DNA of 58,150 nt, taken from NCBI GenBank assembly GCA_035504215.1, contig DATJSI010000043.1:1-58150 (forward strand). The letters are read 5' to 3'. A model generated the notes under the pieces. It was not told the origin of the DNA. It saw only the letters and a program-made list of their open reading frames with translations, and did no database searches. Both the position numbers and the translations under genes were made by a program. The DNA is from Mycobacteriales bacterium. GTDB lineage: Bacteria > Actinomycetota > Actinomycetes > JAFAQI01. This document shows positions 39,401 through 56,390 of the stretch, piece by piece (the first letter of the stretch is position 1; every line of letters starts with the position of its first letter).

Positions 39401-41134
39401 ATGTGCCCGATGGCGGACCAGCCGAGGGTTGGGGGCGGCACCGCAAGCGCGCCAGGGACGCGGAAAGCGCGTTGGGAGCTGCTCGCGGATCCGCTGACGA
39501 ACCGCGGTACGGCGTTCTCCGAGGCCGACCGTGACCGCCTCGGCCTGGCCGGCCTGCTGCCGCCCGGGGTCGAGACGCTCGAGCAGCAGTCCGAGCGCGC
39601 CTGGCGGGCAATGCTGGCGGTCGAGGGAAGTGACCCGTCAGCACGCGACCTCGCCCGCCACATCAACCTGCGTGCTCTTCAGGACACCAACGAGGTGTTG
39701 TTCTACAAGGTCCTGTCCGACCACATCGCAGACACCCTCCCGATCGTCTACACGCCGACGGTCGGTTTGGCGACGGAGCGGTTCAGCGAGATCTACCGGC
39801 GACCTCGTGGCCTGTTCATCTCCTATCCCGACCGGCATCGGATCCGCGACCTGCTGGCCAACCGACCACGCAAGGACGTCGATGTCATCGTCGTCACCGA
39901 CGGGCAGCGGATCCTCGGGCTCGGCGACCAGGGCGCCGGCGGCATGGGCATCCCGATCGGGAAGCTGTCCCTCTATACGGCCGTGGGCGGCATCAACCCG
40001 GCGCGGACGTTGCCGATCCTCCTGGACGTCGGCACCGACAACGCGGAGCGACGGGCGGATCCGATGTACGTCGGATGGCGCCATGAGCGCGTTCCCGAAC
40101 CCGACTACGACGCGTTCATCGATGACTTCGTTAGAGCGGTGCAGGCCGAGCTGCCCGGCGTACTGCTGCAGTGGGAGGACTTCGCGACCAACCATGCGGC
40201 CCCGATCCTGCAGCGCTACCGCGACCAGCTGCTGACGTTCAACGACGACATCCAAGGCACTGCTGCCGTCGTGGCCGGGGCGATGACGGGTGCGGTGGCC
40301 GCCACCGGTACGCCGCTGCGTGACCAGCGAATCGTGATGGTCGGGGCCGGGTCGGCGGGGATCGGTGTGCTCGACCAGCTCGTCCGCGGCATGGTCCGTG
40401 ACGGCGCCACCGAGCAGGACGCGGTGGATCGGTCGTACGTCGTCGACGCCGGAGGGCTGCTCGTCGAGGGGCGCGAGGGTCTCACTCCCGGCCAGCGCCG
40501 CTACGCGAAGAGCGTCGAGCAGCTGGCCGGTTGGAGGATCGACACCAGTAACCCTGCCGGGCTCGATCTCGGCGCCGTCGTGCGCCAGGTGCGCCCCACG
40601 ACGCTGATCGGCCTGTCGACCGCGCACGGCATCTTCACGAAGGAGATCGTGCAGGACATGGCGCGGGCGGTGGCGCGGCCGATCATCATGCCGTTGTCCA
40701 ACCCGACCTCGCGCTCGGAAGCCGATCCGCAGGACCTGGCCGACTGGACGGACGGCCGGGCGCTCATTGCGACGGGGTCGCCGTTCCCGCCGATCGTCGG
40801 CCATGGCGCACCAAGGCGGGTGGCGCAGTCGAACAACGTCTACATCTTCCCGGCGATGGGGCTGGGTGTGCTCGCGAGCGGTGCTAGCCGGGTGACCGAC
40901 GGGATGTTCGCGGCAGCCGCGGAGGCGCTCGGCGTACTGGCACCTGTGCATCGCGATCCGGACGGTGCGCTGCTGCCCGAGATCACCGACATGCCGGCCG
41001 CCGCCACGGTGATCGCGGAAGCTATCGCCATCCAAGCCGTGGCCGACGGTGTCGCGCCGCATCGATCCGCCGATGAGCTGCGCGCAATGGTCCGCGCGTA
41101 CCGATGGACGCCCGCCTACGCCGACGAAGGGTGA
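39401..41134 (+). CDS. maeA: NAD-dependent malic enzyme
   Basis: 577 residues, the long form. Visible are the catalytic Tyr in VYTPTVG near 120, GLGDQGAGGMGIPIGKLSLY with the catalytic Lys near 185, the metal site FNDDIQGTAAV near 280 and the dinucleotide motif VGAGSAGIGV near 315. It decarboxylates malate to pyruvate. GGAAGGG lies about six bases before ATG 39401; Met4 is an alternative start. It is a single gene with no operon partner. It could use malate made from glyoxylate, but no link to the purine operon is shown. Confidence 0.92.
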   Translation: MCPMADQPRVGGGTASAPGTRKARWELLADPLTNRGTAFSEADRDRLGLAGLLPPGVETLEQQSERAWRAMLAVEGSDPSARDLARHINLRALQDTNEVLFYKVLSDHIADTLPIVYTPTVGLATERFSEIYRRPRGLFISYPDRHRIRDLLANRPRKDVDVIVVTDGQRILGLGDQGAGGMGIPIGKLSLYTAVGGINPARTLPILLDVGTDNAERRADPMYVGWRHERVPEPDYDAFIDDFVRAVQAELPGVLLQWEDFATNHAAPILQRYRDQLLTFNDDIQGTAAVVAGAMTGAVAATGTPLRDQRIVMVGAGSAGIGVLDQLVRGMVRDGATEQDAVDRSYVVDAGGLLVEGREGLTPGQRRYAKSVEQLAGWRIDTSNPAGLDLGAVVRQVRPTTLIGLSTAHGIFTKEIVQDMARAVARPIIMPLSNPTSRSEADPQDLADWTDGRALIATGSPFPPIVGHGAPRRVAQSNNVYIFPAMGLGVLASGASRVTDGMFAAAAEALGVLAPVHRDPDGALLPEITDMPAAATVIAEAIAIQAVADGVAPHRSADELRAMVRAYRWTPAYADEG

Positions 41135-41276
41135 TGTTCGCCCGGGTCGGTGGATGGGTTGAATGACGGACGCCGTACGTCGTCGCGGTTGGGCGCACTG
41201 CCCGTCTTCGCGTCGGCGACCACCCACCTGGGCGTGTCGCGCAACACGCCGAGGCGGATGGTCGCCAGCACGAAGA

Positions 41277-42755
41277 TCACTGCAACGACAGTGCTGCTTG
41301 CGCCTTCGGGCGTCGGGTGGCGAGGGCGAGCATCGCGATCGCGCCGGCGAGCAGGGCGGCCGCGCCGGTGAACACGGCGTCGACGCCCTGGGTGAAGGCG
41401 ACCGTCCCGGCGCTCGTGCCGCTGGCGGCACCGAAGACGCTGACCAGCACGGCGACGCCGAGGGCGGCTCCGAGCTGCTGCGTGACGTTGACGAGACCTG
41501 ATGCGGCGGCGGCATCCTGCGCGTCCACGCCACTGACGGCGCTCGCGGTCAGCATGACGAAGGAGATCCCGTTGCCGCCGGCGAAGAGCAGCATGCTGGC
41601 GAGCAGGATCGGGTAGCCGCTACCGGTGCTGAGCTGGCTGTCGATCACCATGCCGATGGTCGACGCGGTCAGGCCGACGTACATGAGGACGGTCGCCGGG
41701 AAGCGGTCGACCAGCACCCGCGTCGTCAGCTGTGACATCACGAAGATCGTGAGCGGGATGGGCAGGAAGGCAACGCCGGCCTCGAGCGGTGAGTAGCCGC
41801 GGACGTCCTGCAGGAACTGGGTGAGGAAGAAGAACATGCCATAGGCACCGGCCGAGAGCAGCGCGCGGGCGACCAGTGCGCCGCCGCGGGTGCGGTTCGT
41901 CAGCAGGCGGAGCGGCAGGATCGGCTGGGCGGCCTTCGCTTCGGCCCGGACGAACACCGTCAGTAGTACCGCGCCGGCCGCGAACGCCGCCAGGGTCCGG
42001 GTGGCGAGCCAGCCCGCGGAAGCCGCCTCGACGAATCCGTAGACCATTGACGTCACGCCGGCGGTCGAGGTCAGGGCGCCGGTGAGGTCGAAGTGTCCGC
42101 TCCGCCGCGGCGTCTCGTCGATGACGAATGCACCGAGCACGATCACAGCGATGGCGATCGGGACGTTGACGAAGAACACCCAGCGCCAGTTGGCAAGGTC
42201 GGTGAGCAAGCCGCCGGCCAGCAGGCCGGTGGCGGCGCCGCCGACCGAGACCGCGGCGAACGTACCGATCGCTCGGGTCCGGGCCCGGCCGTCGGGGTAG
42301 AGGCTCATCAGCAGCGCGAGTACGGCGGGGGATGCCACGGCGCCTCCGACGCCCTGTACGGCACGCGCGGTCAGCAGCATCCAGCCGCTGGTCGACAGGC
42401 CGCCGATCAGGGAGGCGGCGGCGAACAGGGCGACGCCCGTCAGGTAGCTCCGCCGGCGGCCGAGCAGGTCGCCGCAGCGGGCGCCCAGCATCAGCAGGCC
42501 GCCGAAGGTGAGGGCGTAGGCGTTGATGACCCACGACAGCCGTTCGGTGGAGAACGACAGGGCGTGCTGGATCTGGGGGAGAGCGACGTTCACGATCGTG
42601 CCGTCGAGCACGACCATCAGCTGGGTGGTGAGGATCACCGCCAGCATGACCGCGGACCGGGCCGGCCGGCGAGACCGGCGGGCGGCTGGCTCGACGAGGT
42701 CGATCAGGTCGCTGGGGGCATGCGGGCGGACAGGAGCTTCGAGCTGAGCTGGCAT
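41277..42755 (-). CDS. MFS transporter, DHA2 (14-TMS) drug exporter family
   Basis: 492 residues with about 14 hydrophobic helices. The first helix has MVVLDGTIVNVALPQIQ, followed by WVINAYALTFGGLLML, GDLLGRRRSYLTG (motif A) and ARAVQGVGGAVASPAV (motif C region). It probably exports a drug or toxic metabolite. It is divergent from a TetR gene, and tandem operators at 42781-42843 lie between them, the normal layout for a self-regulated efflux pump. Confidence 0.9.
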   Translation of the reverse strand: MPAQLEAPVRPHAPSDLIDLVEPAARRSRRPARSAVMLAVILTTQLMVVLDGTIVNVALPQIQHALSFSTERLSWVINAYALTFGGLLMLGARCGDLLGRRRSYLTGVALFAAASLIGGLSTSGWMLLTARAVQGVGGAVASPAVLALLMSLYPDGRARTRAIGTFAAVSVGGAATGLLAGGLLTDLANWRWVFFVNVPIAIAVIVLGAFVIDETPRRSGHFDLTGALTSTAGVTSMVYGFVEAASAGWLATRTLAAFAAGAVLLTVFVRAEAKAAQPILPLRLLTNRTRGGALVARALLSAGAYGMFFFLTQFLQDVRGYSPLEAGVAFLPIPLTIFVMSQLTTRVLVDRFPATVLMYVGLTASTIGMVIDSQLSTGSGYPILLASMLLFAGGNGISFVMLTASAVSGVDAQDAAAASGLVNVTQQLGAALGVAVLVSVFGAASGTSAGTVAFTQGVDAVFTGAAALLAGAIAMLALATRRPKAQAALSLQ

Positions 42756-42780
42756 GGGGATCGCTACTTCCGATTGAAAC

Positions 42781-42843
42781 GGAGACTGTCTCCATAACTA
42801 TACGGAGATTCTCTCCACTTGGCAATAGGCGGAGGGGTTCTCC
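42781..42843. promoter_or_regulatory. tandem TetR operators between efflux and regulator genes
   Basis: GGAGACTGTCTCC (42781-42793) and GGAGATTCTCTCC (42804-42816) are 13-bp dyads of the form GGAGA-N3-TCTCC with centres 23 bp apart. A weaker copy, GGAGGGGTTCTCC, follows at 42831-42843. They sit in the divergent promoter region of the DHA2 exporter and TetR genes. Confidence 0.7.
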
Positions 42844-42875
42844 ACTTTCTTGGCGGATCGTGGCATCATGGGAAC

Positions 42876-43445
42876 GTGGCGACGACTGTGGAGCGGGATC
42901 GGCCGATGCGGGCCGATGCCCGCCGCAACTACGAGCGGATCCTCACCGCCGCCCGCGAGGAGTTCGCGGAGAACGGCACCGACACGTCGTACGACGACAT
43001 TGCCCGGCGGGCGGGGGTCGGGGCGGGGACGCTCTACCGGCACTTCCCGCGCCGGATCGACCTCGTGGAGGCGGTCTACAGCAGCGACATCGACACCCTG
43101 GTGAGCGCCGCGGACAAGGCCGAGTCGATGCCGGACGCGTTCGAGGGCCTGCGGCTGTGGATGCGGGCTTTCGTCCGCTACACCGACACCAAGCGGGTTC
43201 TCTTCAACGAGATGCACGAGGCATTCGAGCGCGACCCGAACCTTAGGGTGCAGCTGCGTGAGCGGCTGTCGTCCGCGGCCACCCGCGTGCTTCGGCGGGC
43301 GCAGGACAGCGGCGTGGTGCGGACCGACATCAACCCGGACGACCTGCTCCAGTTGCTCGGCGGCATGTGCCTGTCAGCGACGGCAACGCCGGCCAGCAAC
43401 AAACGCCTCCTCAACGTGATCCTCGAAGGCCTCCGCCAACCCTAA
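42876..43445 (+). CDS. TetR/AcrR family transcriptional regulator
   Basis: 189 residues. The N-terminal HTH reads ILTAAREEFAENGTDTSYDDIARRAGVGAGTLYRHF, a classic TetR domain; the C-terminal ligand domain is helical. GTG 42876 is chosen because the protein then begins just before the first TetR helix; the open reading further upstream runs into the operator region. It is divergent from the DHA2 exporter and very likely represses it and itself. Confidence 0.87.
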   Translation: MATTVERDRPMRADARRNYERILTAAREEFAENGTDTSYDDIARRAGVGAGTLYRHFPRRIDLVEAVYSSDIDTLVSAADKAESMPDAFEGLRLWMRAFVRYTDTKRVLFNEMHEAFERDPNLRVQLRERLSSAATRVLRRAQDSGVVRTDINPDDLLQLLGGMCLSATATPASNKRLLNVILEGLRQP

Positions 43446-43575
43446 GCGGACAACTGCGCGATCAGTTCGAGACCGGCATGCAGCGTCGCGCAGCGGATTC
43501 ACCCGAATGCAGCAAGTTGCCTTAGCCCGGTCGGCGGTACCGTCGATTAGCCCGCATGCAGCAGCGACATCGATT

Positions 43576-43595
43576 GGCCACCCGGGCGGGTGGCC
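43576..43595 (+). repeat. 8-bp inverted repeat upstream of a small gene
   Basis: GGCCACCC, loop GGGC, then GGGTGGCC, a perfect stem ending 16 bases before ATG 43612. It may be the terminator of the TetR gene region or a leader hairpin. Confidence 0.4.
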
Positions 43596-43611
43596 GCATC
43601 TGTGAGGTGGC

Positions 43612-43971
43612 ATGAGCACCGAACAGCGGTTAGCCACGCGCGCTGAGTTGCTCGCCGTCGCGGTGAGGCGACTCCACGCTGAGTTCCCGACCGTGGCTGC
43701 TGATCAGGTGGTCCGGTGCGTGCAGATCGCTCGGGACGAGGTGAAGGCCGCGCATCCCGCCGAAGCCGCAGCGGCCGATGCCGCGGGGTTCGTCGGAATC
43801 GTCGAGACTCAGGCCCGTCTGTACCTCGCAAAGTTCGAAGCGGTCCGCGCGGGAGCACAGGTGTCCCCGCCGCCGCCTTCCGCGCCGAAGGTCATTGAGC
43901 TCGGGGCCGCCGAGCGCCGCCGCTTCGGCCGCCACCGCCGCGACGCCGGCACATCCAAGGCCCTCAGGTAG
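43612..43971 (+). CDS. small helical protein, possibly three-helix-bundle dimerisation type
   Basis: 119 residues. The N-terminal 70 residues are predicted all-helical (AVRRLHAEFPTVAADQVVRCV, then an Ala-rich helix and FVGIVETQARLYLAKFEA) and resemble actinobacterial three-helix-bundle (DUF3562-like) proteins. The C-terminal 40 residues are Pro- and Arg-rich. ATG 43612 has GAGGTGG just upstream. The function is unknown. Confidence 0.55.
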   Translation: MSTEQRLATRAELLAVAVRRLHAEFPTVAADQVVRCVQIARDEVKAAHPAEAAAADAAGFVGIVETQARLYLAKFEAVRAGAQVSPPPPSAPKVIELGAAERRRFGRHRRDAGTSKALR

Positions 43972-44256
43972 CACCACACGGCCGATACGCCGCAGTCGCC
44001 GAGGGCACAGGCCCGGGTCTGCGGCCGTTCGAACTGAAGCAGCAGCCAGAGACGCGCGCTCAATCAGAGGTCGTAATACAGCGCGAGATTTGGCGCTGAA
44101 CTGGGGATACACAGGCTGCGTGGCTCGGCTGGGCGCAGGTGGGGCACACCACCTACGGCCGTGGGCGGCAGAGGCACCCCGCGCGCCTCCGCCACTACTG
44201 GCGGCGTGCCCGGTTGAGAGGTCAGGTCGGCCGCGCCTGTTGCCGATACAGACCGG
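43972..44256. other. non-coding stretch with the left 19-bp repeat
   Basis: No gene with coding character is visible on either strand. It contains the direct repeat copy at 44063-44081 and, directly after it, a small inverted repeat (CAGCGC...GCGCTG, 44079-44098). Confidence 0.4.
44063..44081 (+). repeat. 19-bp direct repeat, left copy
   Basis: ATCAGAGGTCGTAATACAG. It matches the copy at 49865-49883 in 18 of 19 positions and the same orientation. Both copies are intergenic. Confidence 0.5.
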
Positions 44257-45345
44257 ATGGGGATCCCCACCTGGTGGCGGAACCGACGGCACGACGACCC
44301 GGCGGTGTCGTCGGATCGGCGTGCGGTCCGCCAGGCAGCGGTGCTGTTCATCGCGGCTGGCGCGATCGGGTTGATCACCGACTTCATGCCGGGCGCGGTC
44401 GGGCCAGGGAACAAGTTCCTGGATGCGTTGAACCTGATCGTGGGCCTGCTCGCATTGACCCGGCTGTCCAACCGAGTGACCGGCTACCGGGCGCTGGTCT
44501 TCCCGGCTTTCGGGATGGTCGTGATCGGGTTGAACAACGCCGCGGGCGCGCTACCCGCACCGACCTTGGGAATCTGGTTCGTGCTGATCTTCTTGTGGAT
44601 CGGTTCGTGGTATCCGCGGGGGATCTGCCTGCTGGCGAGCCCGTTCGCGGCAGCGGCCTACCTGGCGCCGTACGGGTTCGGTGCACCCCGCACGACCGGT
44701 GCCGTCGGCTCGGCGATGCTGGTGATCCCGGTCGCAGTCTTGGCCGGCGAGGTGATCGCAGCGAACGTCGCGCGGTCGCGGGCGCTGGCGCGCGAGCAGC
44801 AACGCGCGGTGGATGCGCTAGCTAAGGCGAACCTGACCGATGACCTGACCCAGCTCGGTAACCGCCGGTTCGGTAACCAGATCTTGGACGGGATCGAACC
44901 GGGTGACGCGTTGGCGTTGCTCGACCTTGACCATTTCAAGGCGATCAACGACCAGTACGGGCACGCCCGCGGCGACGTGGTCCTGCAGCAGCTCGGTGAC
45001 TATCTGCGGGCCATGGTGCGAAGCGAGGACGGGATCGCTCGGATGGGCGGCGAGGAGTTCATGGTGATCCTGCACGGGGTGACGCTTGGGCAGGCGTTCG
45101 ACTCGGTCGACCGGCTGATCCGCGGCTGGCGGGCGACCGGGCCGCTGAGCACCCTGAGTGCTGGCGTCGCGCTGCAGGCCGCGGGCCGCTCCCCGATCGA
45201 CACCTACCGCGACGCCGACAACGCCCTGTACGTGGCGAAGACCACCGGCCGGGACCGCACCGTCCTTCACGACGTCGCGGTAGCCGCCGCCTTGTTGGCT
45301 GAGGGTGGGGTGGACTCGCCGGCTGCGGGCACGCGCTCCGCGTAG
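44257..45345 (+). CDS. membrane diguanylate cyclase (GGDEF)
   Basis: 362 residues. Five to six transmembrane helices occupy about residues 25-170. A short coiled linker (REQQRAVDALAKAN) leads to the GGDEF domain: DDLTQLGNRRF, LLDLDHFKAINDQYGH and the active site MGGEEF near 270. An RxxD product-inhibition site (RSED) lies five residues before it, so an active, feedback-inhibited c-di-GMP synthase is expected. No N-terminal ligand domain is recognised. The gene stands alone. Confidence 0.88.
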   Translation: MGIPTWWRNRRHDDPAVSSDRRAVRQAAVLFIAAGAIGLITDFMPGAVGPGNKFLDALNLIVGLLALTRLSNRVTGYRALVFPAFGMVVIGLNNAAGALPAPTLGIWFVLIFLWIGSWYPRGICLLASPFAAAAYLAPYGFGAPRTTGAVGSAMLVIPVAVLAGEVIAANVARSRALAREQQRAVDALAKANLTDDLTQLGNRRFGNQILDGIEPGDALALLDLDHFKAINDQYGHARGDVVLQQLGDYLRAMVRSEDGIARMGGEEFMVILHGVTLGQAFDSVDRLIRGWRATGPLSTLSAGVALQAAGRSPIDTYRDADNALYVAKTTGRDRTVLHDVAVAAALLAEGGVDSPAAGTRSA

Positions 45346-45508
45346 TTGATGTCGCTCGCGAGACACGCTTGCAGTATCCGCAGGTATTGCGGTCGCGCTT
45401 GCGGCTCGCGGTTCCGTACCGGTCGCCCGCCTCCCGCCGCTGCTGGTAGTAGCCGCGAACCGCCGGTGAGGCGTTGATCAGCGGGGTGACCCAGAGGTGG
45501 ACCGTCAG
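45346..45508 (-). pseudogene. IS110-family transposase C-terminal remnant
   Basis: The minus strand reads HLWVTPLINASPAVRGYYQQ RREAGDRYG, matching the conserved NASPAVRAYY..RR..GD block of IS110/IS116 transposases. The alignment then shifts frame to a stretch like the family end (QYLRILQACLASDINYAE). There is no start, no catalytic DEDD part and no intact frame, so this is a decayed end of an element. No terminal repeats were found. Confidence 0.5.
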
Positions 45509-45688
45509 ACGAGCAACCGTCGCTTAGGGGCCCGGATCGGCTCTATCGTCCGAGCTAGGTACTCGGCTGACGGTGGGGACTGGCGAGCACCAGCTCCCCG
45601 ACCGCCAGCGGGCCATGCGGTGGCGGTCGGGGCGCACGCCGGCAGCCTTACCCCTTCAGTTCCAGCAGGTCTGGTCCTAGCCTGAATC
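45509..45688. other. non-coding stretch between IS remnant and VOC gene
   Basis: I see no gene here; the only signal is the -10-like TAGCCT at 45678-45683. Confidence 0.35.
45678..45683 (+). promoter_or_regulatory. -10 box (TAGCCT) before the VOC gene
   Basis: TAGCCT ends five bases before ATG 45689, and there is no ribosome site, indicating a leaderless message. Confidence 0.35.
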
Positions 45689-46033
45689 ATGCACATCATC
45701 GGACTGTCATTCGCTGGGACATCAACCCCCCAGCGCGAACAGATGACCGAATTCATGGTGTCTGTACTCGGCGTCGAGCGCGCTGAGATCACCGGGGTAG
45801 AAGCCGACCTGTTCTGCTTGGCCGACGGCAGCCTGTTCGCCGTTGCGGCACCGGACACGATGGGGCCATCCGCTCGAGCCATTGGCTTCCTCGTCGATGA
45901 CCTCGACGCCGCGATTTCAGACCTCCGAGACCACGGCATCTACACCGACGAGATCGTGACCAACGATCTCAACCGCTATGTGCACTTCACGGCACCGGAC
46001 GGTCATCTCTACGAACTCGTCGAACCTTGCTAG
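45689..46033 (+). CDS. VOC (glyoxalase/bleomycin resistance-like) family protein
   Basis: 114 residues, a single VOC module: an N-terminal beta-alpha unit (FMVSVLGVERAEI, LFCLADGSLFAVAAP) and the second half AIGFLVDDLDAAISDLRDHGI ending in YVHFTAPDGHLYELVEP with the metal-type Glu. The substrate cannot be predicted. The start is supported by a -10 box directly upstream (leaderless). Confidence 0.8.
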   Translation: MHIIGLSFAGTSTPQREQMTEFMVSVLGVERAEITGVEADLFCLADGSLFAVAAPDTMGPSARAIGFLVDDLDAAISDLRDHGIYTDEIVTNDLNRYVHFTAPDGHLYELVEPC

Positions 46034-46205
46034 TCCTGGACCAACGCGAACGTCGGTTCTGCAGTACTTGCCTTTGCGCGCCGCGGGCGGTGGTCATCGA
46101 GAAGCAGTCAGGACTTCAGATCGTCCGGGTGGCGGAAGCCGAACGGGATCGACGCCTCTGGCCAGTTGACGGCCCTGCAAATGAGCTGCCGCTACCGGCT
46201 GTGGG

Positions 46206-47711
46206 TTATGACGCGCGCAACGCGCCGGGATGAGCGATCTTGCTCGCGAGCGCGGCAGAGTAAGGCACCGCCGTGCCTTTGCCGGCGTGCTTCGCCGCGT
46301 ACATTGCGAGGTCGGCGCGTCTGAGCATGTCCGTCGCATCGACGGGTGCCTCGGCTGATGTGAGGGTCGCGACGCCGATGCTCGCCCGAACGGACAGCTG
46401 AAGACCCGCGATCGCGATCGGCTGGTCGAGGCTGTGCAGGAGGCGCTGCGCAGTCTCCAGCGTTGCCTCGCCTTCCTCGATCAAGATCGCGAACTCATCG
46501 CCGCCGAGGCGCGCGACCGTATCGCCTGTTCGAACGGTTGTGCAGATACGCTCGCTGACGCGCACGAGCAACTCGTCCCCGCACGGGTGTCCGAGGGTGT
46601 CGTTAACCGTCTTGAAGTCGTCGAGGTCGACCAGCAAAACAGAGACAGTTCGGCCGTCTCGTCTGTGCAACTCGAGGGCATGGGCGAGACGGTCATTGAA
46701 CAGGGCACGGTTGGCCAAGCCGGTCAGCACGTCGTGAAGCGCCTGGTGGCTGATGCGGTTCATGAGGGTGCGGTTGTCAAGCAGAACAAGCACCTGACGA
46801 CTAACCAGCGCGACCGCGAGCAGAGCCGCGGCCCACGCGGTGGTGGGATCGAGCTTCCTAGTAGACACCTGGTTCAACACGATCGCGATCGCCGCGGTCG
46901 CGGGCAGATAGGGCAGCAACAGTGCCGTGCGCGGCGCGAGCGCCGTGACGGCGTCATCCTGGACCGTGTCGTCGACGACGGCCGCGACCGCGATCACCAG
47001 GAATCCCGCGACCCATCCCGTGTCGATGAGGTTGACCGCGCCGTAATGCCCGATCGCGGTGAGATAGGCGAAGCCGCTGTCGGCAACCGACAGGAAGGTA
47101 AGGCCCGCGACGGTGGTGACGAGGCCAGCCCGATGACCAGTCCGCGCGTAGCTGATGACCACGACCGCGACGGTGACAAGGACAAGGTCACTGACTGGGT
47201 AGGCCAGCGACACCACCGCCGCGAACCGGGTGTCTGCGCCCTCGCGGTACACCTCGCCGAGCGCGGTGATCCAAGTGATCAAGAACAACGAGGCGGATAC
47301 CAGCGCGGCGTCCAAGCCGACCCGGACCCTGCCTTGACCCGTGAAGGCGGCCGACGGGCGGGTCAACAGACCAGCGAGCGCGAGCACGGGGAAGAGCAGG
47401 AACCCCGCATCCGCTAGGGATGGGAAGGGCGTCTCGCGACCAACCAGAAGTTCGTAGTAGCACCAGATGGCCTCTCCGCCCGCCCATGCTGCGCAGCCCG
47501 CGGCGAACAGCGCCCATGACCTCCGGTAGCGGCGAGCGGCTCGATGCGCTCGCCAGGCCCCGGCAGCTGCTGCCACACCGGCTGCGACCATCTGGGCGAT
47601 GTCATCGACACCCCGGGTGAAGGAGACGCCACGCGGGCGCAGGACGATGTCAGCGACGAACGCGGTGACGAGCACCGCGCACGCTGTCGGCGCCCAGCGA
47701 CGTCCATGCAT
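46206..47711 (-). CDS. membrane diguanylate cyclase (GGDEF) with large membrane sensor
   Basis: 501 residues. About nine to ten transmembrane helices span residues 10-320, then a GGDEF domain: HDVLTGLANRALFNDRL, VLLVDLDDFKTVNDTLGH and ARLGGDEFAIL near 425. RTGD, an intact RxxD I-site, precedes it. No EAL domain is present. ATG 47711 removes a Pro/Arg-rich upstream reading and places the protein start just before the first helix, although its ribosome site is weak. It is likely to synthesise c-di-GMP in response to a membrane signal. Confidence 0.85.
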   Translation of the reverse strand: MHGRRWAPTACAVLVTAFVADIVLRPRGVSFTRGVDDIAQMVAAGVAAAAGAWRAHRAARRYRRSWALFAAGCAAWAGGEAIWCYYELLVGRETPFPSLADAGFLLFPVLALAGLLTRPSAAFTGQGRVRVGLDAALVSASLFLITWITALGEVYREGADTRFAAVVSLAYPVSDLVLVTVAVVVISYARTGHRAGLVTTVAGLTFLSVADSGFAYLTAIGHYGAVNLIDTGWVAGFLVIAVAAVVDDTVQDDAVTALAPRTALLLPYLPATAAIAIVLNQVSTRKLDPTTAWAAALLAVALVSRQVLVLLDNRTLMNRISHQALHDVLTGLANRALFNDRLAHALELHRRDGRTVSVLLVDLDDFKTVNDTLGHPCGDELLVRVSERICTTVRTGDTVARLGGDEFAILIEEGEATLETAQRLLHSLDQPIAIAGLQLSVRASIGVATLTSAEAPVDATDMLRRADLAMYAAKHAGKGTAVPYSAALASKIAHPGALRAS

Positions 47712-47992
47712 GCCACCAACATCGGCAGGAGGACGGCACGCTCTATAGCCCGATTGCACTGCTACCCCCGCCAAATGGCGCGGCCGGCGGCCTGAAATAG
47801 CTTGCCCCCGATGCGCCAAGACCGTGCTGCCGGGTCTCGGTTACGTCGGGGGCGCTCTCTTGCCTGTGAGGGGTCGCGTCGGCGACGGAGGACCCCGATG
47901 CGACCGTTCTCGTGCCCGACAGCCGGGTCATCCGCCTCCGAGATTCTCAGGAATCCGTCTCCCGCTATCGGACGGATTGCTACGTTTGCGGA

Positions 47993-48622
47993 GTGTCCGA
48001 ATCAGGCGAATTAGATGCATGGCTGGCGCGCCTGACGGCGGCAGAGTCGGACCTCGCTGACCGGGAATCCGCAACTCAAGAGGCGGAGCTGAGTCCCGAG
48101 GAGCGGCGAGCATTCGCGGAAGAGCACGAGAAGCTGGCCGCTGACCGCGACGCTCTGGCCGACGCGTACGACAACGCTGCGAGCTATCGGGACACCGCTG
48201 GTTTCGCTCGCGACGTCTACGGCTCGGAACGCGACCGTGACGCGCGCCGCCGGTTTCAAGACCTCGACCCGGGCTGGTCCGACCGGGTCACGGCAGGTGA
48301 GGACCGTGATCTCGCCGCGGGTGACCGGGCGGACGCGGGTGATGATCGAGCGCGCAGCGCAGCGGACCGGCTCAGAGCGGCGGCCGAGCGGCAGAGAGCC
48401 CGGGTTCACACCGAGGGCCTTGAACGAGAGATCGCGTTGCTGCGGGAAGCACTCACGGCGCGGCAGTTGATTGGGCGAGCCGAAGGACTACTGATGGCTC
48501 GCCACAACCTTGGTGAGCCAGCCGCCTCCAAACTCCTCACCCGACTCGGGGCCGAACTCGAGCTCGATCGGACCGCGATAGCAGTAGGGATCCTCAGCGA
48601 GCACGCGTCGCAGCGACCGTAG
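47993..48622 (+). CDS. ANTAR-domain RNA-binding protein with charged repeats
   Basis: 209 residues. The N-terminal 150 residues are a very charged helical region with recurring D-R-D/A-A-D motifs (EDRDLAAGDRADAGDDR). The last 60 form an ANTAR domain: ALTARQLIGRAEGLLMARHNLGEPAASKLL. ANTAR domains bind paired hairpins in nascent RNA and prevent termination. No receiver domain is attached. GTG 47993 sits seven bases after a TACGTT -10-like box (leaderless); GTG 47912 is a longer alternative. Confidence 0.7.
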   Translation: MSESGELDAWLARLTAAESDLADRESATQEAELSPEERRAFAEEHEKLAADRDALADAYDNAASYRDTAGFARDVYGSERDRDARRRFQDLDPGWSDRVTAGEDRDLAAGDRADAGDDRARSAADRLRAAAERQRARVHTEGLEREIALLREALTARQLIGRAEGLLMARHNLGEPAASKLLTRLGAELELDRTAIAVGILSEHASQRP

Positions 48623-48731
48623 CAGGCGTTCTTTGAAGTGCTGGCTCAATCAAGCAGTGCTGGAAGCCTCTGGCCATCGTCAGCGCCTGTGCCCAGCATG
48701 ACGAATCTGGCAGGAGTGTTGGCACAGAGTC

Positions 48732-48989
48732 CTAGCTACCCACCCTCGATCGTCGTCTGACGATGTCGGCGCAGATCCCGCAGGCCCGCCCTGTTCCAGG
48801 CCATGGTTCCCGGTAGTCATTCGCGATCTGGACATTGCAGAGGGTGCGGCTTGAGCCGGTTTCGACCGCGTGCCCGACACCAACGGTTTCGTGACGGTAG
48901 TGGACAACCGTCTTGTCGGCGATCAGGCGGTCGTATGGCTCCTGGACGTGCTCCCACGCCATCTGCACAGGCGCAGTGTGCTCTCCCAC
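48732..48989 (-). CDS. small hypothetical protein with Cys pairs
   Basis: 85 residues. HYRHETVGVGHAVETG is followed by SRTLCNVQIANDYREPWPGT and RACGICADIVRRR. The spacing C...W.P...C..C recalls short actinobacterial zinc-ribbon-like proteins. The start is unsure: GTG 48989, or ATG 48962 which trims nine residues. No function can be given. Confidence 0.45.
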   Translation of the reverse strand: MGEHTAPVQMAWEHVQEPYDRLIADKTVVHYRHETVGVGHAVETGSSRTLCNVQIANDYREPWPGTGRACGICADIVRRRSRVGS

Positions 48990-49063
48990 GCTTACCTGAT
49001 CAAGAAACCCCCGACTGCCTGACGTCCGGCTTGTTCGAGTTCGCTCCCGGTGCCCCCGAAGGA

Positions 49064-49183
49064 TCAGCGCGAGGCGACAATCGCGACCGCAACGACAATG
49101 AGGATCATGGCGATGATCGGCCAGACCGGAACGTAGCTCAGTTTCCGGCGCTGGTTACGTTCCGCCTTGGACGGGCTCGGCAT
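49064..49183 (-). CDS. 39-residue single-pass membrane protein
   Basis: Begins MPSPSKAERNQRRKLSYVPV, then one hydrophobic helix (WPIIAMILIVVAVAIVAS) and a final Arg. The positive-inside N-terminus and clean helix make this a believable small membrane protein. GTG 49192 is an alternative start. No strong ribosome site is seen. Confidence 0.5.
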   Translation of the reverse strand: MPSPSKAERNQRRKLSYVPVWPIIAMILIVVAVAIVASR

Positions 49184-49351
49184 CCGCTGCACGATGCTCG
49201 GTCTACCCGATGGCGCTGGTCGGCAACCGTCGGTGGCCCTGGCTTGCCAGGCTAGGTGGTCGACAAAGGCCGCATGCGCATGAACCTTCCGCTGGGCGCG
49301 CCCGGTCGACGCGTCGCCCCATGACCCATTTCCAGCCGGCTCAACCTAGCT

Positions 49352-49831
49352 ATGCGTTGCACCGGTGTCAGCAAAACGCTGCAGAAGCGGTCGGCGTACC
49401 TAGGAGGCAGCTCGCGGCGAGGACGCGCGCTCGCGACCAGCTCACCCACGTTGCCTTATGCGGCCGGGTTCGACACCACCACCTATGCACCGGTCATCCA
49501 GCGGTTCAACGGCACGACCTGGTCTGCCGCGACGTTGACCAAGAAGGCCAAACACCCAGATCAGCTGGAAGGGCTCACGATGCATGGTCGGTCGGCGTGG
49601 ACAGTCGGCATCCACAACGGCAGCGAACCTGAGATCCTGCATACAGCCGGGGGGGTTTGGACGGTTGAGCAAACCCTCAAGAGCGGCGACACCCTGAGCG
49701 CGATCAGCGCCGCGTCCAGGAAACACGCCTACGCCGCCGGCAGCTACCTGAACAAGACCGACATGGCCCGACGAACCCACCTCGAGTACTTCAACGGCCA
49801 CTCGTGGAAGGCCGAGCCCTCCAAGGTCTAA
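49352..49831 (+). CDS. propeller-repeat fragment without signal peptide
   Basis: From about residue 35 the product reads as two to three repeats of the type AAGF....APVIQRFNGTTWSAA...AWTVG, close in style to the repeats of the secreted protein at 24312-25433. The first 35 residues are basic and not signal-like, so the gene looks like a truncated, possibly dead, piece of a secreted propeller protein. The true start, if any, is unclear. Confidence 0.4.
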   Translation: MRCTGVSKTLQKRSAYLGGSSRRGRALATSSPTLPYAAGFDTTTYAPVIQRFNGTTWSAATLTKKAKHPDQLEGLTMHGRSAWTVGIHNGSEPEILHTAGGVWTVEQTLKSGDTLSAISAASRKHAYAAGSYLNKTDMARRTHLEYFNGHSWKAEPSKV

Positions 49832-50092
49832 GCACTGGTCGTTGGAATTGCCGTCAGCTCGCCCATCAGATGTCGTAATACAGTCGCAGGGCGCCGGCGA
49901 TGCGCGTCTGACCTGCGGTTTCGCTTCAGCGGTCGACGGCTGGATGTTCTCTGGATGTTCTGGGAGCGCTCTGAGAGTGTCCCTTGGTCGCCGCGTCGCC
50001 GGCGCGACCGCTAGCTGAAACCGAGTGGTCAGGTCCGGCAAATGATGTGGGAGCGATTCAGCCTTCACTGTGGTGGGTGTCGCAAAATGGCG
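49832..50092. other. intergenic stretch with direct repeats
   Basis: No gene is seen. It holds the right 19-bp repeat copy and a tandem repeat of TGGATGTTCT (49941-49950 and 49952-49961) with 11-bp periodicity. Confidence 0.4.
49865..49883 (+). repeat. 19-bp direct repeat, right copy
   Basis: ATCAGATGTCGTAATACAG, one mismatch to the copy at 44063-44081, same orientation, 5.8 kb apart. Confidence 0.5.
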
Positions 50093-50557
50093 CTAGTTAT
50101 TCGCCTCGACAGGCTCGATCGCAACGTCCAGGTTGGCCTTCATGATCGGGAGGGTCACGCCGGTATAGCCGAGCCTCAGCGCGGTCGAATGGATTGCCTC
50201 ACGCAGGTTCGGCGTGATCATCATCAAGCCGACGTTCTCGGTGAAGCGCTGGACGACCGCCACACTCGGTTCAGGCCCCACGAAACTGAAGGCAAGGACC
50301 ATAGCGACTCGGACGTGAGCAACTGGCTCGCCATCATCGCCTTTCAGGGTCGCGGTGCACTCGAAGCGGAGAAACAGACTCTTGTCGACTACCGAGAAGT
50401 TCGATTCAAGCTCGTAACTAGTGGTCGGTGCGGCTCCGGGACGCAGCCGATCGGCGTGCAGGTTCGTGGTGTCGATTCCAAGGAGTTGGCTCCCATGGAT
50501 GAAGGCGTTGTACTCCTCAGCCGAGAACGGCACGAGCGGTTCTGCGTAGTTAGGCAC
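50093..50557 (-). CDS. SecB-like chaperone of a toxin-antitoxin-chaperone module
   Basis: 154 residues from a GTG start. The core matches the SecB fold: FSVVDKSLFLRFECTATLKG, then VAMVLAFSF, and the C-terminal ITPNLREAIHSTALRLGYTGVTLPIM, equivalent to the SecB PYLRE..... helix and LPP loop. Actinobacteria normally lack SecB for secretion; solitary SecB-like proteins such as Rv1957 guard a HigA-type antitoxin. Here the start overlaps the antitoxin stop by 8 bases, which strongly supports the same role. Confidence 0.75.
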   Translation of the reverse strand: MPNYAEPLVPFSAEEYNAFIHGSQLLGIDTTNLHADRLRPGAAPTTSYELESNFSVVDKSLFLRFECTATLKGDDGEPVAHVRVAMVLAFSFVGPEPSVAVVQRFTENVGLMMITPNLREAIHSTALRLGYTGVTLPIMKANLDVAIEPVEANN

Positions 50558-51182
50558 CGCGGACGACCTCCCACATCGGACTGTTAATCGCCTCTGCGGT
50601 GAACAGCCCGACTGGTCTCTCCACGGCCGCTCCTCCGACCTCGAAGGCAGCGCTCACGTCTGCGTCATTCGCCGGCTGAAAAACAGACTCAACAACCAGT
50701 CGGCCGGGCGTCATGCCGACGACGCTCGACTCGACAACGAGTGGTTGACCACTCGCCGGATAAACCATGTGCCAGATAATGGGCTCTCGACTGAGCTCTC
50801 TGCGCTGCCAACAGCACTCGACGTGCGCGCGACCCGGTTCTACCGGATGAACGGCCAGGCACGATTGGTAGCCCATCGCTCGCGTATACCGGCCGATTGT
50901 GGCAATGCGAAGGTTGCCATCGCCGTTGAGGACCTGCGAAACCGCGCTCTCAGACACGCCAAGCTCATCCGCGACCGCCGATGCCGTCATGCCGCTGGCA
51001 GCGAACGTCTTCTTCAAAACGCCCGACACTGTAATGGCAAGTTCGGCGGCTGCGAGCTCCTGCAACCCAGCCGGGGTACTGGCGTACTCGTCGAACATCG
51101 ACGGCTCGGCATTGCTGACCGCGCCGTCGCTACGTCGGCGGGGCGTGCGGCCAGAGCGAGGCGAGTGCTCAAGGTCTGTCAT
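50550..51182 (-). CDS. XRE-family antitoxin (HigA-like) with long C-terminal domain
   Basis: 210 residues. The HTH lies at about 65-105: MTASAVADELGVSESAVSQVL followed by NLRIATIGRYTRAMGY. The N-terminal 45 residues are polar. About 100 residues after the HTH (LAVHPVEPGRAHVECCW to the end) are beta-rich; in TAC antitoxins the region after the HTH carries the chaperone-addiction segment. The gene overlaps the toxin by 14 bases and the SecB gene by 8, so all three are one transcript. It probably represses the operon and neutralises the toxin. Confidence 0.75.
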   Translation of the reverse strand: MTDLEHSPRSGRTPRRRSDGAVSNAEPSMFDEYASTPAGLQELAAAELAITVSGVLKKTFAASGMTASAVADELGVSESAVSQVLNGDGNLRIATIGRYTRAMGYQSCLAVHPVEPGRAHVECCWQRRELSREPIIWHMVYPASGQPLVVESSVVGMTPGRLVVESVFQPANDADVSAAFEVGGAAVERPVGLFTAEAINSPMWEVVRGA

Positions 51183-51591
51183 GCGCGGCGTCTTCCTCGC
51201 GAATCTTCAACGCTTCCTGAACCTTCTCGGGTGGCGCAAGGTCGTCATCCTTCTCCCATGCACAGCCGAGGCGGAGAACTGCGTCCATCTCGGGATACCA
51301 CCATTTGTCGTCGGGATGGAACTTGCCTGGAGTCGTGCTGTTGAAATCCTTGACACGAGGCTTCGGTGTAAACGTGCCGTCACCTGGGGTATCCCAGTAG
51401 CTGAGGCGGCGATTGCTGTGCTTGAACTCCCACACGCCGTCGTCAAGATCGTTCACATCCGTCCGAGTAGACGGCTCGCCGAACTCAACGACGTGTTGGA
51501 TCTTCTTCAGAAGATAGGCATAGTCGTGGATTTGGTCCTGGTCCTTTGGTGGTTGGTAGCCCGGGTCGTCGCGACGCGCCCCGTTCCGCAT
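51169..51591 (-). CDS. HigB/RelE-like toxin of the TAC module (start uncertain)
   Basis: 140 residues from ATG 51591. HigB/RelE-like pattern: AYLLKKIQHVVEFGEPSTR, then LDDGVWEFKHSNRRLSYWDT and a C-terminal CAWEKDDDLAPPEKVQEALK resembling the family tail (F.KK...P..E...A). An insert of about 35 residues (PKPRVKDFNSTTPGKFHPDD) separates the last two blocks. The frame stays open upstream with GTG 51813 (214 residues) or GTG 51918, but that part has weak codon bias and contains a dyad at 51699-51716. Related HigB toxins attack mRNA. Confidence 0.6.
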   Translation of the reverse strand: MRNGARRDDPGYQPPKDQDQIHDYAYLLKKIQHVVEFGEPSTRTDVNDLDDGVWEFKHSNRRLSYWDTPGDGTFTPKPRVKDFNSTTPGKFHPDDKWWYPEMDAVLRLGCAWEKDDDLAPPEKVQEALKIREEDAAHDRP

Positions 51592-52094: not shown

Positions 52095-55000
52095 CTAATT
52101 TGTGGACGCGGCGAATAGTTCTGCCTGCTCCAACACCAGCTCGATCGCGCGCTCTTCGTGGTCGGGTGGGTAGTCGTACTTCGCGAGCAGACGGCGGATC
52201 TTGGCGCGCATCGTCGCACGGACCGACTCCTTGAGGTTCCAGTCGATCGTGACGCTCTGCTGGACCGCGAAGACGAGGTCGACCGCAATCTTCTTGAGGG
52301 TGTCGTCGCCCATCTCAAGGACTGCGGCGTCGTTCTGGACGATCGCGTCGTAGAGCGCGGCCTCGGCTACTGACAGGCCGAGTTGCTCATGGCGGTGCTG
52401 CTGGTCGCGCATTTGTTTCGCGAGCTTCACCAGCTCGGCGATGATCTCGGCAGTCGTCAGGGCACGGTTCGTGTAGCGGTTGATCGCCTCGTCGAGTTGC
52501 GCGGAGAACAGCCGGGCCTGCACGAGGTTCGTCCGCTGGACAGTCGAGATCTGGTCGTTGAGCAGCTTGCGCAGCAGGCCCATCTGCAGGTTCGGCTTGT
52601 CCTTGTGCGCGAGACCGTCAAGGAACTCGTCCGACAGGATCGACAGCTCTGGCGTCTCGATCCCCGCCATCGCGTAGACGTCGACGACGTCGTCTTCCGC
52701 GGTGACGGCCTCGTTGACGAGCTGGCCGATCGCGGTCTCCATCGCGACGTCGCCACCGGCGCCGGCTCGACCCGAGTCGGGGTTCTCGATCTTGAGGATC
52801 GCCGCGCGGACGTCGGCGAACAGCCGCACGTCGTTGCGGATCGCCAGCGCCTCGTCTCGGCTGCCGCACAGCGCGAACGCCTTCGCGAGCGCGAGCACCT
52901 GATCGAGGTACCGGGTCTTGCGGTCCGGGTCGGCCATCACGAAGTCGAGGACGACCGCATGCTGCGCGAGTCGCTCAGCCGCCGGCAAGGCGGGTGAGGA
53001 GTTGAAAGCGCAGCCGTGCAGCAGCGTCCGGATGACGTCGTGCTTCTCGAGCATGACCGAGACCATCTCGTCGATCGGCACTCCAGCCTGGTCGCGATCG
53101 CTGGGGGAGTACTCGCGCAACGCGGCTCGCAAGCTGGTCGCCACGCCGATGTAGTCGACGATTAGGCCGCCCGGCTTGTCGCGGAAGGTGCGGTTGACCC
53201 GCGCGATCGCCTGCATCAGACCGGCGCCCTGCATCGGCTTGTCGACGTACATCGTGTGCACGGCAGGCGCGTCGAACCCGGTGAGCCACATGTCCCTGAC
53301 GATCACCAGCTCCAGCGGGTCGTCCGGGTCCTTCGCCCGCGCCTTGAGCTGCTTGCGCACGTCCTTGCCGTGCAGGTGCGGCTGGTACGCCGGCGGGTCC
53401 GCGGCCGAGCCGGTCATCACGACCTTGATCGCCCCGGCGGCCGGGTCCTCGTCGTGCCAGTCCGGCTGAAGCTCCACGATCTTGGCGTAGAGCTCGACCG
53501 CGATCCGGCGGCTCATCACGACGATCATCGCCTTGCCGAACAGCTCGCCCCGGCGCCGTTCCCAGTGCTCAACGATGTCCGCTGCAACGACGTCGAGCCG
53601 GTCGTCCGCGCCGACAATCGCCTCAAGCCGCGCCCACTTCGATGTCGCCGCACGTGCGTCGTCCTCGGAGGCGCCTTCGATGATCTCCTCGACTCCGGCG
53701 TCAACTGCCTCTCGCGCGTCGTCGGGCAGCGACACCTTCGCCAGACGCGACTCGTAGAAGATCCGGACCGTCGCACCGTCCTCGACCGCTCGCGTCAGGT
53801 CGTAGACGTCGATGTAGTCGCCGAACACGCTGCGGGTCGAGCGGTCGCCGGACTCGATCGGGGTGCCGGTGAACCCGAGGTACGTCGCATTCGGCAGCGC
53901 ATCACGCAAATGCTTCGCGTAGCCATCCGCGAACCCATACTGCGAGCGATGCGCCTCATCCGCGACGACCACGACGTTGCGACGATCGGTCAGGACGGGG
54001 TGGATGTCGCCGCGTTCCTCGGGCGCGAACTTCTGGATCGTGGTGAAGATGATGCCGCCCGCCGCACGCGACAGCAGCTCGCGCACCTCGGCACGTGACT
54101 CCGCCCGCCGCGGTGCCTCCGGCAGCACTCGTGCCGGCGCGAAGACCTCACCGAACAGCTGGTCGTCGAGGTCGTTGCGGTCGGTGATGAACACCAGCGT
54201 CGGGTTGCCCATCGCCGCAGAGCGCATGATCTTCGCGGCGTACAGCAGCATCTCGAACGACTTGCCCGACCCCTGGGTGTGCCAGACCACGCCGCCGCGT
54301 CGGTCACCGTCCGGGCCGGCCGCCTCGATCGTCGACTCGACGGCGGCGTTGACCGCCCAGTACTGGTGGTATTTCGCGAGCCGCTTCACCAGCCCGCCCG
54401 GCTCGTCGGAGAACGCGATGAATGACCGTGTCAGGTCGAGGAACCGGCGCTGATCAAACACACCGCGCATCAAGACTTCGAGCGCAGGCCGGTTCGTGAT
54501 CACCTCGCGGCCGTCGATCGTCTTCCACGGCGCGTAGTGTTCCCAGCCGGCGGTGAACGACCCCATCGACGCCGAGGTCCCGTCCGAGACGACCGTCACC
54601 GCGTTCGGGACGAAGATCGACGGGATGTCGTGGCGGTAGGTCTGGATCTGGTTCCACGCGCCGCGCAGCGTCGCGTTCTCATCGCCGGGGTTCTTCAGCT
54701 CCAGCAGGGCGAGCGGCAGTCCGTTGACGAAGACCACAACATCGGGCCGGCGGTTGCGGCCGGCCTCGATCACCGTGAACTGGTTGACCGCCAGCCAGTC
54801 GTTCGCCGCCGGGTCTTCCCACGAGATCAGCCACACCAGCGACGTCCGGATCAACGCGTCCGCGCCGCGATGCTCCACCGGTACGCCGTCGACCAGCAGC
54901 CGGTGGAACCGCTCGTTCTCCGCGAGTGGGTTCTGCGACTCCGGCCGCAGCAGCGCCTTGATCGCGTCGTCGATCACCGCAGCGGGCAGTTCCGGGTTGA

Positions 55001-55178
55001 TTCGCGCCGCCGCCTCGCGGAGCCGGCCGAGCAGCACGACCTGCTCGTAGGACTCGCGTTCGGGTGCGTTGCCGTCCTCGGCGATCACTGGTCCCGGCTG
55101 CGTCTGGTAGCCGAGGCCGCGCAGGTAGTCCAGCGCCGCGTCCTCGACGACCGCCTCGGTGATCCCGGATGGACTCAC
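52095..55178 (-). CDS. hsdR: type I restriction enzyme R subunit
   Basis: 1027 residues. The nuclease domain has RPDVVVF...ALLELKNP (Asp146, Glu160, Lys162: D...ExK). The SF2 translocase shows Walker A TQGSGKSF (301-308), DEAH (407-410), GFTGTP near 430 and the C-terminal helicase block with DMWLTGFDAP and QAIARVNR. A helical C-terminus contacts the MTase. It cuts unmodified DNA after translocation, together with HsdM2S. GTG 55178 overlaps the stop of the Phd-like gene (GTGA), so expression is coupled to the toxin-antitoxin genes rather than directly to hsdS. Confidence 0.93.
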   Translation of the reverse strand: MSPSGITEAVVEDAALDYLRGLGYQTQPGPVIAEDGNAPERESYEQVVLLGRLREAAARINPELPAAVIDDAIKALLRPESQNPLAENERFHRLLVDGVPVEHRGADALIRTSLVWLISWEDPAANDWLAVNQFTVIEAGRNRRPDVVVFVNGLPLALLELKNPGDENATLRGAWNQIQTYRHDIPSIFVPNAVTVVSDGTSASMGSFTAGWEHYAPWKTIDGREVITNRPALEVLMRGVFDQRRFLDLTRSFIAFSDEPGGLVKRLAKYHQYWAVNAAVESTIEAAGPDGDRRGGVVWHTQGSGKSFEMLLYAAKIMRSAAMGNPTLVFITDRNDLDDQLFGEVFAPARVLPEAPRRAESRAEVRELLSRAAGGIIFTTIQKFAPEERGDIHPVLTDRRNVVVVADEAHRSQYGFADGYAKHLRDALPNATYLGFTGTPIESGDRSTRSVFGDYIDVYDLTRAVEDGATVRIFYESRLAKVSLPDDAREAVDAGVEEIIEGASEDDARAATSKWARLEAIVGADDRLDVVAADIVEHWERRRGELFGKAMIVVMSRRIAVELYAKIVELQPDWHDEDPAAGAIKVVMTGSAADPPAYQPHLHGKDVRKQLKARAKDPDDPLELVIVRDMWLTGFDAPAVHTMYVDKPMQGAGLMQAIARVNRTFRDKPGGLIVDYIGVATSLRAALREYSPSDRDQAGVPIDEMVSVMLEKHDVIRTLLHGCAFNSSPALPAAERLAQHAVVLDFVMADPDRKTRYLDQVLALAKAFALCGSRDEALAIRNDVRLFADVRAAILKIENPDSGRAGAGGDVAMETAIGQLVNEAVTAEDDVVDVYAMAGIETPELSILSDEFLDGLAHKDKPNLQMGLLRKLLNDQISTVQRTNLVQARLFSAQLDEAINRYTNRALTTAEIIAELVKLAKQMRDQQHRHEQLGLSVAEAALYDAIVQNDAAVLEMGDDTLKKIAVDLVFAVQQSVTIDWNLKESVRATMRAKIRRLLAKYDYPPDHEERAIELVLEQAELFAASTN

Positions 55179-55945: not shown

Positions 55946-56368
55946 TCAATTGTTGATGAAGACGCCGATGTTCGGCTTGTCGCGAGTGCCGCCGCAGAGC
56001 GTGGCGTCGAACTCGACCATGACGCCTTGGCCTCCCCAGGCATCCAGCGTGCTCGCTAGTTCCGCAGCCTGCTCACGCGCGACATGGCCGACGATTCGAC
56101 CCCTGATGTGTACGGCGATGGCGTTGCGGTCGTACTGGTTGTGCGGCTCGCGCACCAATCGCGCGGGCCAGCTGTCGCTCTGCCGCTGAAGTTGGCGAAG
56201 GGCCGAGAGGTGGAACGACTCGCCACGGATCTCGAGCCGATGCCGGTAGTTCAGCGCCGAGAAGTCAACGACCCGCACCGGAGTCGCAGCGCGCTGCACA
56301 GGCACTCGCCGCCGTCGTCGCAGGGTCAATAAGGACACGCGGTCATGGTGGCGCGCCGGCAAGATCAC
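55946..56368 (-). CDS. HIRAN-domain protein
   Basis: About 140 residues. The HIRAN pattern is clear in the C-terminal 100: YRHRLEIRGESFHLSALRQL, ARLVREPHNQYDRNAIAVHI and GRIVGHVAREQAAELA. HIRAN domains bind DNA ends or stalled forks in eukaryotic HLTF and occur alone in bacterial restriction and phage loci. The start is uncertain (GTG 56368, 22 bases after the hsdS stop, or GTG 56338). It is the first extra gene between hsdS and hsdR. Confidence 0.7.
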   Translation of the reverse strand: MILPARHHDRVSLLTLRRRRRVPVQRAATPVRVVDFSALNYRHRLEIRGESFHLSALRQLQRQSDSWPARLVREPHNQYDRNAIAVHIRGRIVGHVAREQAAELASTLDAWGGQGVMVEFDATLCGGTRDKPNIGVFINN

Positions 56369-56390
56369 TCGCAGCCGAACGCTGGATCGC

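Follow-up and report, generated by a model that had tools for sequence, protein, structure and literature searches.

Elements that enter bacterial chromosomes at the 3′ ends of genes by means of tyrosine integrases, be they islands, prophages or actinomycete integrative and conjugative elements (AICEs), share a set of traces: direct repeats that match the gene end, a restored gene end, paired arm-type sites and tandem arrays. AICEs are described in tandem in tRNA genes and also in protein-coding genes (PMC3218068), mycobacteriophages have arm-type sites flanking short cores of down to 10 bp (PMC10865867), and other sources describe many attachment sites (attB) in Mycobacterium (PMC10654092), prophage sites in actinobacteria (PMC10023795) and large island catalogues that include attB in protein-coding genes (PMC12884075). 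Here we describe a locus with the same traces in a 58,150-nt window (the whole stretch of DNA analysed, contig DATJSI010000043.1, here C43) from a Mycobacteriales bacterium. Two 19-bp direct repeats in this window match the 3′ end of the glutamine synthetase gene glnA, and we consider it likely that both are att cores of elements for which the end of glnA serves as attB. The locus differs from the described systems in that its target is glnA and not a tRNA gene, and in that no integrase was found with the two units in the assembly.

The repeats are most likely the boundaries of foreign segments, one of them with a restriction system, that are stacked downstream of glnA. Three cores lie in the same orientation, two of these have paired arms on their element sides, and in other actinobacteria integrases carried by elements occur at the same glnA end. 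This kind of event is known, and glnA may already be listed somewhere as a target. In a partial literature collection, where an absence is weak evidence, we found no description of glnA as attB, and ‘glnA’ has 0 occurrences in the main texts of the five papers cited above. An unexplained repeat pair is in this way turned into a mapped landing site at the end of glnA, a conserved gene of nitrogen metabolism.

The glnA 3′ end as source of the repeat pair

The original prediction described two intergenic 19-bp repeats that could be attachment sites or scars of an inserted segment, or else a small regulatory repeat. The pair is as described: ATCAGAGGTCGTAATACAG at 44063-44081 and ATCAGATGTCGTAATACAG at 49865-49883, both on the plus strand, have no further match in the window when up to 3 mismatches are allowed, and 100 shuffles gave 0 matches. 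‘Intergenic’ is a fair term, although the copy at 44063 abuts the end of a 135-aa open reading frame (ORF; 44064-44471, minus strand) without a Pfam match. Across the genome (3.47 Mb, 150 contigs) the 19-mer has 3 matches at up to 3 mismatches, all in the same orientation, against 0 for a reversed control; the many copies expected of an interspersed repeat were not found.

The third match, at 1627-1645 of contig C87, is the 3′ end of glnA (...RPHPYEFALYYDI; ...LYYDI), where the reverse strand reads CTG TAT TAC GAC ATC TGA T. This glnA gene is intact, with a 474-aa frame from ATG that ends in LYYDI* (the open frame has 505 aa). Beyond the 19-mer, pairs of the three sites share 13-21 of 60 positions per side, i.e. 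their likeness ends where the 19-mer ends. Among 60 genomes, this one included, 13 have the 19-mer at up to 2 mismatches, and 11 of 12 loci from the 12 other genomes (L004-L015) are glnA ends, L010 being the exception. As the core is the glnA 3′ end both in C87 and in relatives, the window copies are displaced copies of that gene end:

44063-44081, minus strand: att1, glnA-end core copy reading CTG TAT TAC GAC CTC TGA T, with one change (Ile to Leu codon); 18/19
49865-49883, minus strand: att2, exact glnA-end core copy reading CTG TAT TAC GAC ATC TGA T; 19/19

The element is flanked by direct repeats that match the end of its target gene, at 19/19 positions at att2 and 18/19 at att1, with a contig gap between the glnA core and att2. 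That the repeats are attachment sites is supported, since the repeated sequence is the end of glnA, which serves tyrosine-integrase elements as a site. The suggestion of a small regulatory repeat fared less well. A regulatory or coding motif unrelated to integration would agree with the short length of the repeat and with the lack of an integrase in the window, but exactly 3 copies exist in the genome, one of which is the glnA end, and arm repeats are common to 2 of the 3. Moreover, Rfam at the gathering threshold gave no match in 43000-51500, hence none near the repeats. We regard such a motif as very improbable.

Integrases at glnA ends in other actinobacteria

Integrases and arms at glnA ends outside the bacterial family of this genome provide independent evidence that glnA ends are attB sites. 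In the IMG/VR contig L059, a tyrosine integrase adjoins a copy of the core that differs at one base, and AGTCCGCA arms are present at an 11-bp period; a search of viral contigs with the AACATCC arm matched 2 contigs. In a sample of the class, genome G114 has an integrase end just after glnA that is 78% identical over 67 aa to the L059 integrase. A scan of GTDB genomes with the L059 integrase family yielded 258 relatives, and the following figures rest on the best 80 of the 258. At 51% identity or above (L077-L117), 40 of 41 integrases adjoin the 3′ end of a glutamine synthetase gene, with L116 as the exception, and the distance from that end to the integrase match is 15 to 614 bp; at 45% or below, 0 of 39 do so. 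In 18 of the 40 loci the gene tail occurs a second time (0-3 mismatches in 21), at a distance of 5.7-10.5 kb; 34 of the 40 extend at least 10.6 kb in the direction of the distal core, with longer elements out of view. An arm repeat starts 26-49 bp after the stop codon in all 40 loci, and one precedes the distal core in 18/18.

A second lineage is represented by an integrase of the same-family relative G005. A glutamine synthetase gene is present in only 3 of 23 loci of this type (G005 itself included; 148 genomes, fetched flanks of up to 1.5 kb), so the lineage as a whole is not glnA-specific. The G005 integrase has no relative in IMG/VR and no match above 60% identity in plasmids. One integrase clade, found in many actinobacterial genera, and in three loci a second lineage use the glnA end, which is a predicted target for integrating genetic tools in actinobacteria that are poorly tractable.

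The glnA-end elements of other Actinomycetes (L077-L117 except L116, L059, L063 and L217) have the same kind of core and the same target as those described here, and, in the comparison of arms, which covered L077-L117 except L116, L059 and L217, an 11-bp period is common to them and to this genome. They differ in carrying an integrase at the core, and the L059 clade has its AGTCCGCA arms at other distances. Tn7 offers another model, as it inserts downstream of its target gene (PMC4046053). A Tn7-like transposition that recognises the gene end and inserts beside it would likewise use a conserved gene end as a landing mark and leave the gene intact, but it is at odds with the duplication of the gene end at the far end of 18 elements and with the tyrosine integrases and arm repeats that accompany the site. 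Among the explanations weighed here we hold it to be the least probable.

The two-core glnA element of L102 (1200-11200) encodes primase/polymerase-like and minor-tail-like proteins (PHROGs), and on this gene content some two-core glnA elements may be phage satellites. L059 looks phage-like, a judgement made by eye only. In G008:C214 (L194, L214) an integrase that belongs to the glnA clade (profile E 5e-169) occurs with AGTCCGCA arms; the fetched DNA that was scanned holds no glutamine synthetase gene or core, and the integrase seemingly follows the end of another gene, so the target may switch.

Arm repeats and the restriction element

The third core copy and the att arms place the better-defined element to the right of 49883. 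This DNA carries type I restriction-modification genes, runs off the contig toward C87 and lies outside the interval first proposed; it is the better-supported of the two units. The features next to att2 are as follows:

49909-49921, plus strand: TGACCTGCGGTTT motif on the element side of att2, at 25 bp from the core
49940-49959, minus strand: arm repeat AACATCCAGAGAACATCCAG, an 8-mer repeated at 11 bp, ending about 57 bp from the att2 core on the right (element) side

A sister arm, AACATCCACAGAACATCCAG, is found downstream of the glnA core (C87:1505-1524), i.e. arm-type repeats are present inside both ends of the restriction element. At up to 3 mismatches the arm repeat has only 2 matches in the genome, beside att2 and beside the glnA core. 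Across 393 genomes from the class, of which this is one, the arm AACATCCANAGAACATCCA has 2 exact matches, both of them in this genome on the inner sides of att2 and of the glnA core. A second motif, TGACCTGC with a short run after it, lies between core and arm. While the period alone proves nothing, a private pair at both predicted ends is not weak evidence.

The geometry of the core flanks fits two of five same-family relatives, G004 and G005, one of which has an integrase there. On the distal side the motif is 25 bp and the arm end 57 bp from the core, here and in G004 alike; on the proximal side motif and arm are at +44 and +103 here versus +46 and +105 in G005. In that genome glnA and the arm are directly followed by a tyrosine integrase gene (Phage_integrase).

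A number of observations count against this picture. Among the relatives, the distal core of G004 is at the predicted distance and degenerate (5/19 bases differ), the motif scores are 9/13 (G004, distal) and 10/13 (G005), and the arm sequences differ from that of this genome. G001 is off the geometry, with an arm at about +190 and no distal core found, and no arm was found in the glnA flanks of G002 and G007 or on the proximal side of G004. In its strict form the motif scores 11/16 at the C87 site, which 402 of 3000 random windows reach, and the relaxed form was drawn up after the sites had been seen. A 7-mer repeated at a period of 9-14 is present in 85 of 400 random 260-bp windows. The join of C87 to C43 is inferred, the contigs being unjoined in the assembly, and no integrase of fitting type was found in the visible parts of the element or elsewhere in the assembly.

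The Phage_integrase matches in the genome number 4 (on C81, C120, C22 and C99); beyond these, a profile search found no more than a weak fragment on C131. The integrases of C81 (3429-4628, L061), which adjoins tmRNA, and of C120 (4096-5334, L060), which is near tRNA-Met, were rejected as the missing enzyme. The TGACCTGCGGTTT motif occurs just upstream of the C120 integrase.

The visible genes of the restriction element in the window are:

50093-50557, minus strand: ORF of 154 aa, no Pfam match
50550-51182, minus strand: HTH_3 (XRE-type) protein
52095-55178, minus strand: hsdR, type I restriction subunit
55946-56521, minus strand: HIRAN-domain protein
56391-57572, minus strand: hsdS, specificity subunit
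57566-58117, minus strand: hsdM, C-terminal part, truncated at the contig end; no other N6_Mtase match occurs in the genome

The hsdR, hsdS and hsdM genes form one cluster, in which hsdM is the gene cut by the contig end. Linking the contigs through hsdM fails, as the genome has only one N6_Mtase match. On the C87 side the element holds a 54-aa ORF and a cut 405-aa ORF, the latter without a Pfam or PADLOC match. Guanine-cytosine (GC) content is 69.3% left of att1, 66.2% in the segment between the two window cores, 64.6% on the restriction side, 63.3% on the C87 side and 70.8% on C87 from glnA on.

In four of five family relatives (G001, G002, G004 and G005) the DNA downstream of glnA carries toxin-antitoxin or abortive-infection genes, namely PIN (VapC-like), AbiEi/AbiEii or DUF5615/DUF433 genes; in G007 it seemingly carries none, by eye only. 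This hints that the region is a hotspot in this bacterial family, in a small sample of five relatives. The glnA end is a locus at which defence genes and mobile elements can be sought. The four relatives resemble the present genome in having defence or toxin-antitoxin cargo at the glnA 3′ flank and differ from it in the kind of cargo and in a distal core that is only degenerate (G004) or was not seen. We might imagine that the glnA end in this family is a stacking dock for integrase-less cassettes (restriction, toxin-antitoxin, DUF6933, GGDEF) that keep core and arms and rely for their movement on glnA-specific integrases, supplied in trans by passing phages or larger elements, a thought that we hold to be rather unlikely. 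G001 and G004 have a PIN-domain unit in common downstream of glnA (L018, L019; 92% DNA identity), and in G001 about 1 kb of extra DNA, with a DUF6933 gene and its own arm repeat AGCAACCAGAGAGCAACCAG, lies between glnA and this unit.

The 5.8-kb segment and its proposed history

The DNA between att1 and att2 has the following features:

44082-49864, no strand: 5.8-kb segment between the cores, GC 66.2%, with unknown ORFs besides the named genes
44096-44111, plus strand: weak copy (13/16) of the CTGAMCTGCGGAAACG motif, 14 bp inward of att1 and with the same side and orientation as at att2
44257-45345, plus strand: GGDEF gene (Pfam)
45689-46033, plus strand: VOC/glyoxalase gene (Pfam)
46206-47819, minus strand: GGDEF gene, 537 aa (Pfam)
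47912-48622, plus strand: ANTAR gene (Pfam)

The original prediction had offered, as one of its possibilities, that 44063-49883 is an inserted segment. This stands in part: there is a core at each end, but arms are lacking at 44063 and on the segment's own side of 49865, and the better-defined element lies outside the interval. With cores and no arm, the segment is probably an older, decayed unit in tandem. Its two GGDEF genes, VOC gene and ANTAR gene were confirmed by Pfam, while the IS110 remnant that had been reported among them was not: 10 ORFs in and around the segment (7 inside) have no Pfam match at E ≤ 1, bar one irrelevant weak match outside. The stretch 45341-45520, which we take by eye to be the most similar to an IS110 C-terminus, has no Pfam match and was not confirmed. 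Conserved synteny through the segment, which would speak against an insertion, was sought by comparing 41000-50100 with 12 relatives. Among the matches listed, weak ones excluded, none spans the segment, and the strongest to any relative is one GGDEF gene in other surroundings.

In the reading that we hold to be likely, a tyrosine integrase would recombine the glnA end (attB) with an attP that carries the same 18-19 bp, restoring the glnA end on one side and leaving a copy on the other. The most likely order outward from glnA would then be the core at C87:1627-1645, the restriction-modification element (C87:1626 to 1, the assembly gap, and C43:58150 to 49884), att2 (49865), the older 5.8-kb unit (49864 to 44082), att1 (44063) and the flanking chromosome. 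Here att2 would be both the distal attR of the restriction element and its junction with the older unit, and att1 the outer attR of the older unit to its right. The 5.8-kb unit would have been first in place and pushed outward when the restriction element entered at glnA. This history supposes that the two contigs join, that the 5.8-kb segment is a second unit with an entry of its own, and that the integrase lies within the gap, was lost or was supplied by another element.

Several points tell against this history. Its larger GGDEF gene has 72-73% DNA matches in G003 and G007 in other surroundings, and part of the segment may on this account be ordinary chromosome. No arm repeat is found at 44063 or on the segment's side of 49865, and that side of att2 has no motif either. 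The motif at att1 is only modestly above chance, with 13/16 reached by 22 of 3000 random 100-nt windows. Finally, the left flank as native DNA downstream of glnA is unsupported by two checks: tblastx of the DNA downstream of glnA in relatives gave scattered noise-level matches only, and the 119-aa gene at 43612 is in 0 of 12 relatives. No genome with glnA and the left flank of the window on one contig was found, and no empty site was seen.

It is possible, if doubtful, that the restriction island from the glnA core to att2 is the single real element, that the 5.8-kb segment is ordinary variable chromosome and that att1 is the scar of an earlier excision or a stray copy. The absence of arms and the Ile to Leu change at att1, the likeness of the larger GGDEF gene to a gene in two relatives in other surroundings and the intermediate GC of the segment are all in keeping with this, but att1 is still 18/19 identical, in the same orientation and with a weak motif on the expected side, and among the matches listed none shows the segment collinear in a relative. 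The converse, a lone mobile element at 44063-49883 that arrived by itself and for which the glnA copy is merely the original target, would explain the bounding direct repeats and a length of 5.8 kb that is within the range of the 18 two-core glnA elements (5.7-10.5 kb). We think it quite unlikely, as the arms lie outside the segment, to the right of att2, and the segment itself contains neither arms nor a Phage_integrase match.

The 537-aa GGDEF gene has a match of 73% DNA identity within a longer open frame of G003 (800 aa), and the copy in the window may be truncated. Of 26 genomes searched (this one, which has none, and 25 relatives), 15 contain the CTGAMCTGCGGAAACG motif, at 23 places (L171-L193), against 0 for a reversed control. 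It often directly follows the 3′ ends of conserved genes: a tRNA gene in 5 of 22 loci scanned with ARAGORN, the RNase P RNA in 2 of 20 loci scanned with Rfam (L172, L177) and, judged by eye, glnA in L175 and L176. This motif may be a shared part of actinobacterial attP sites.

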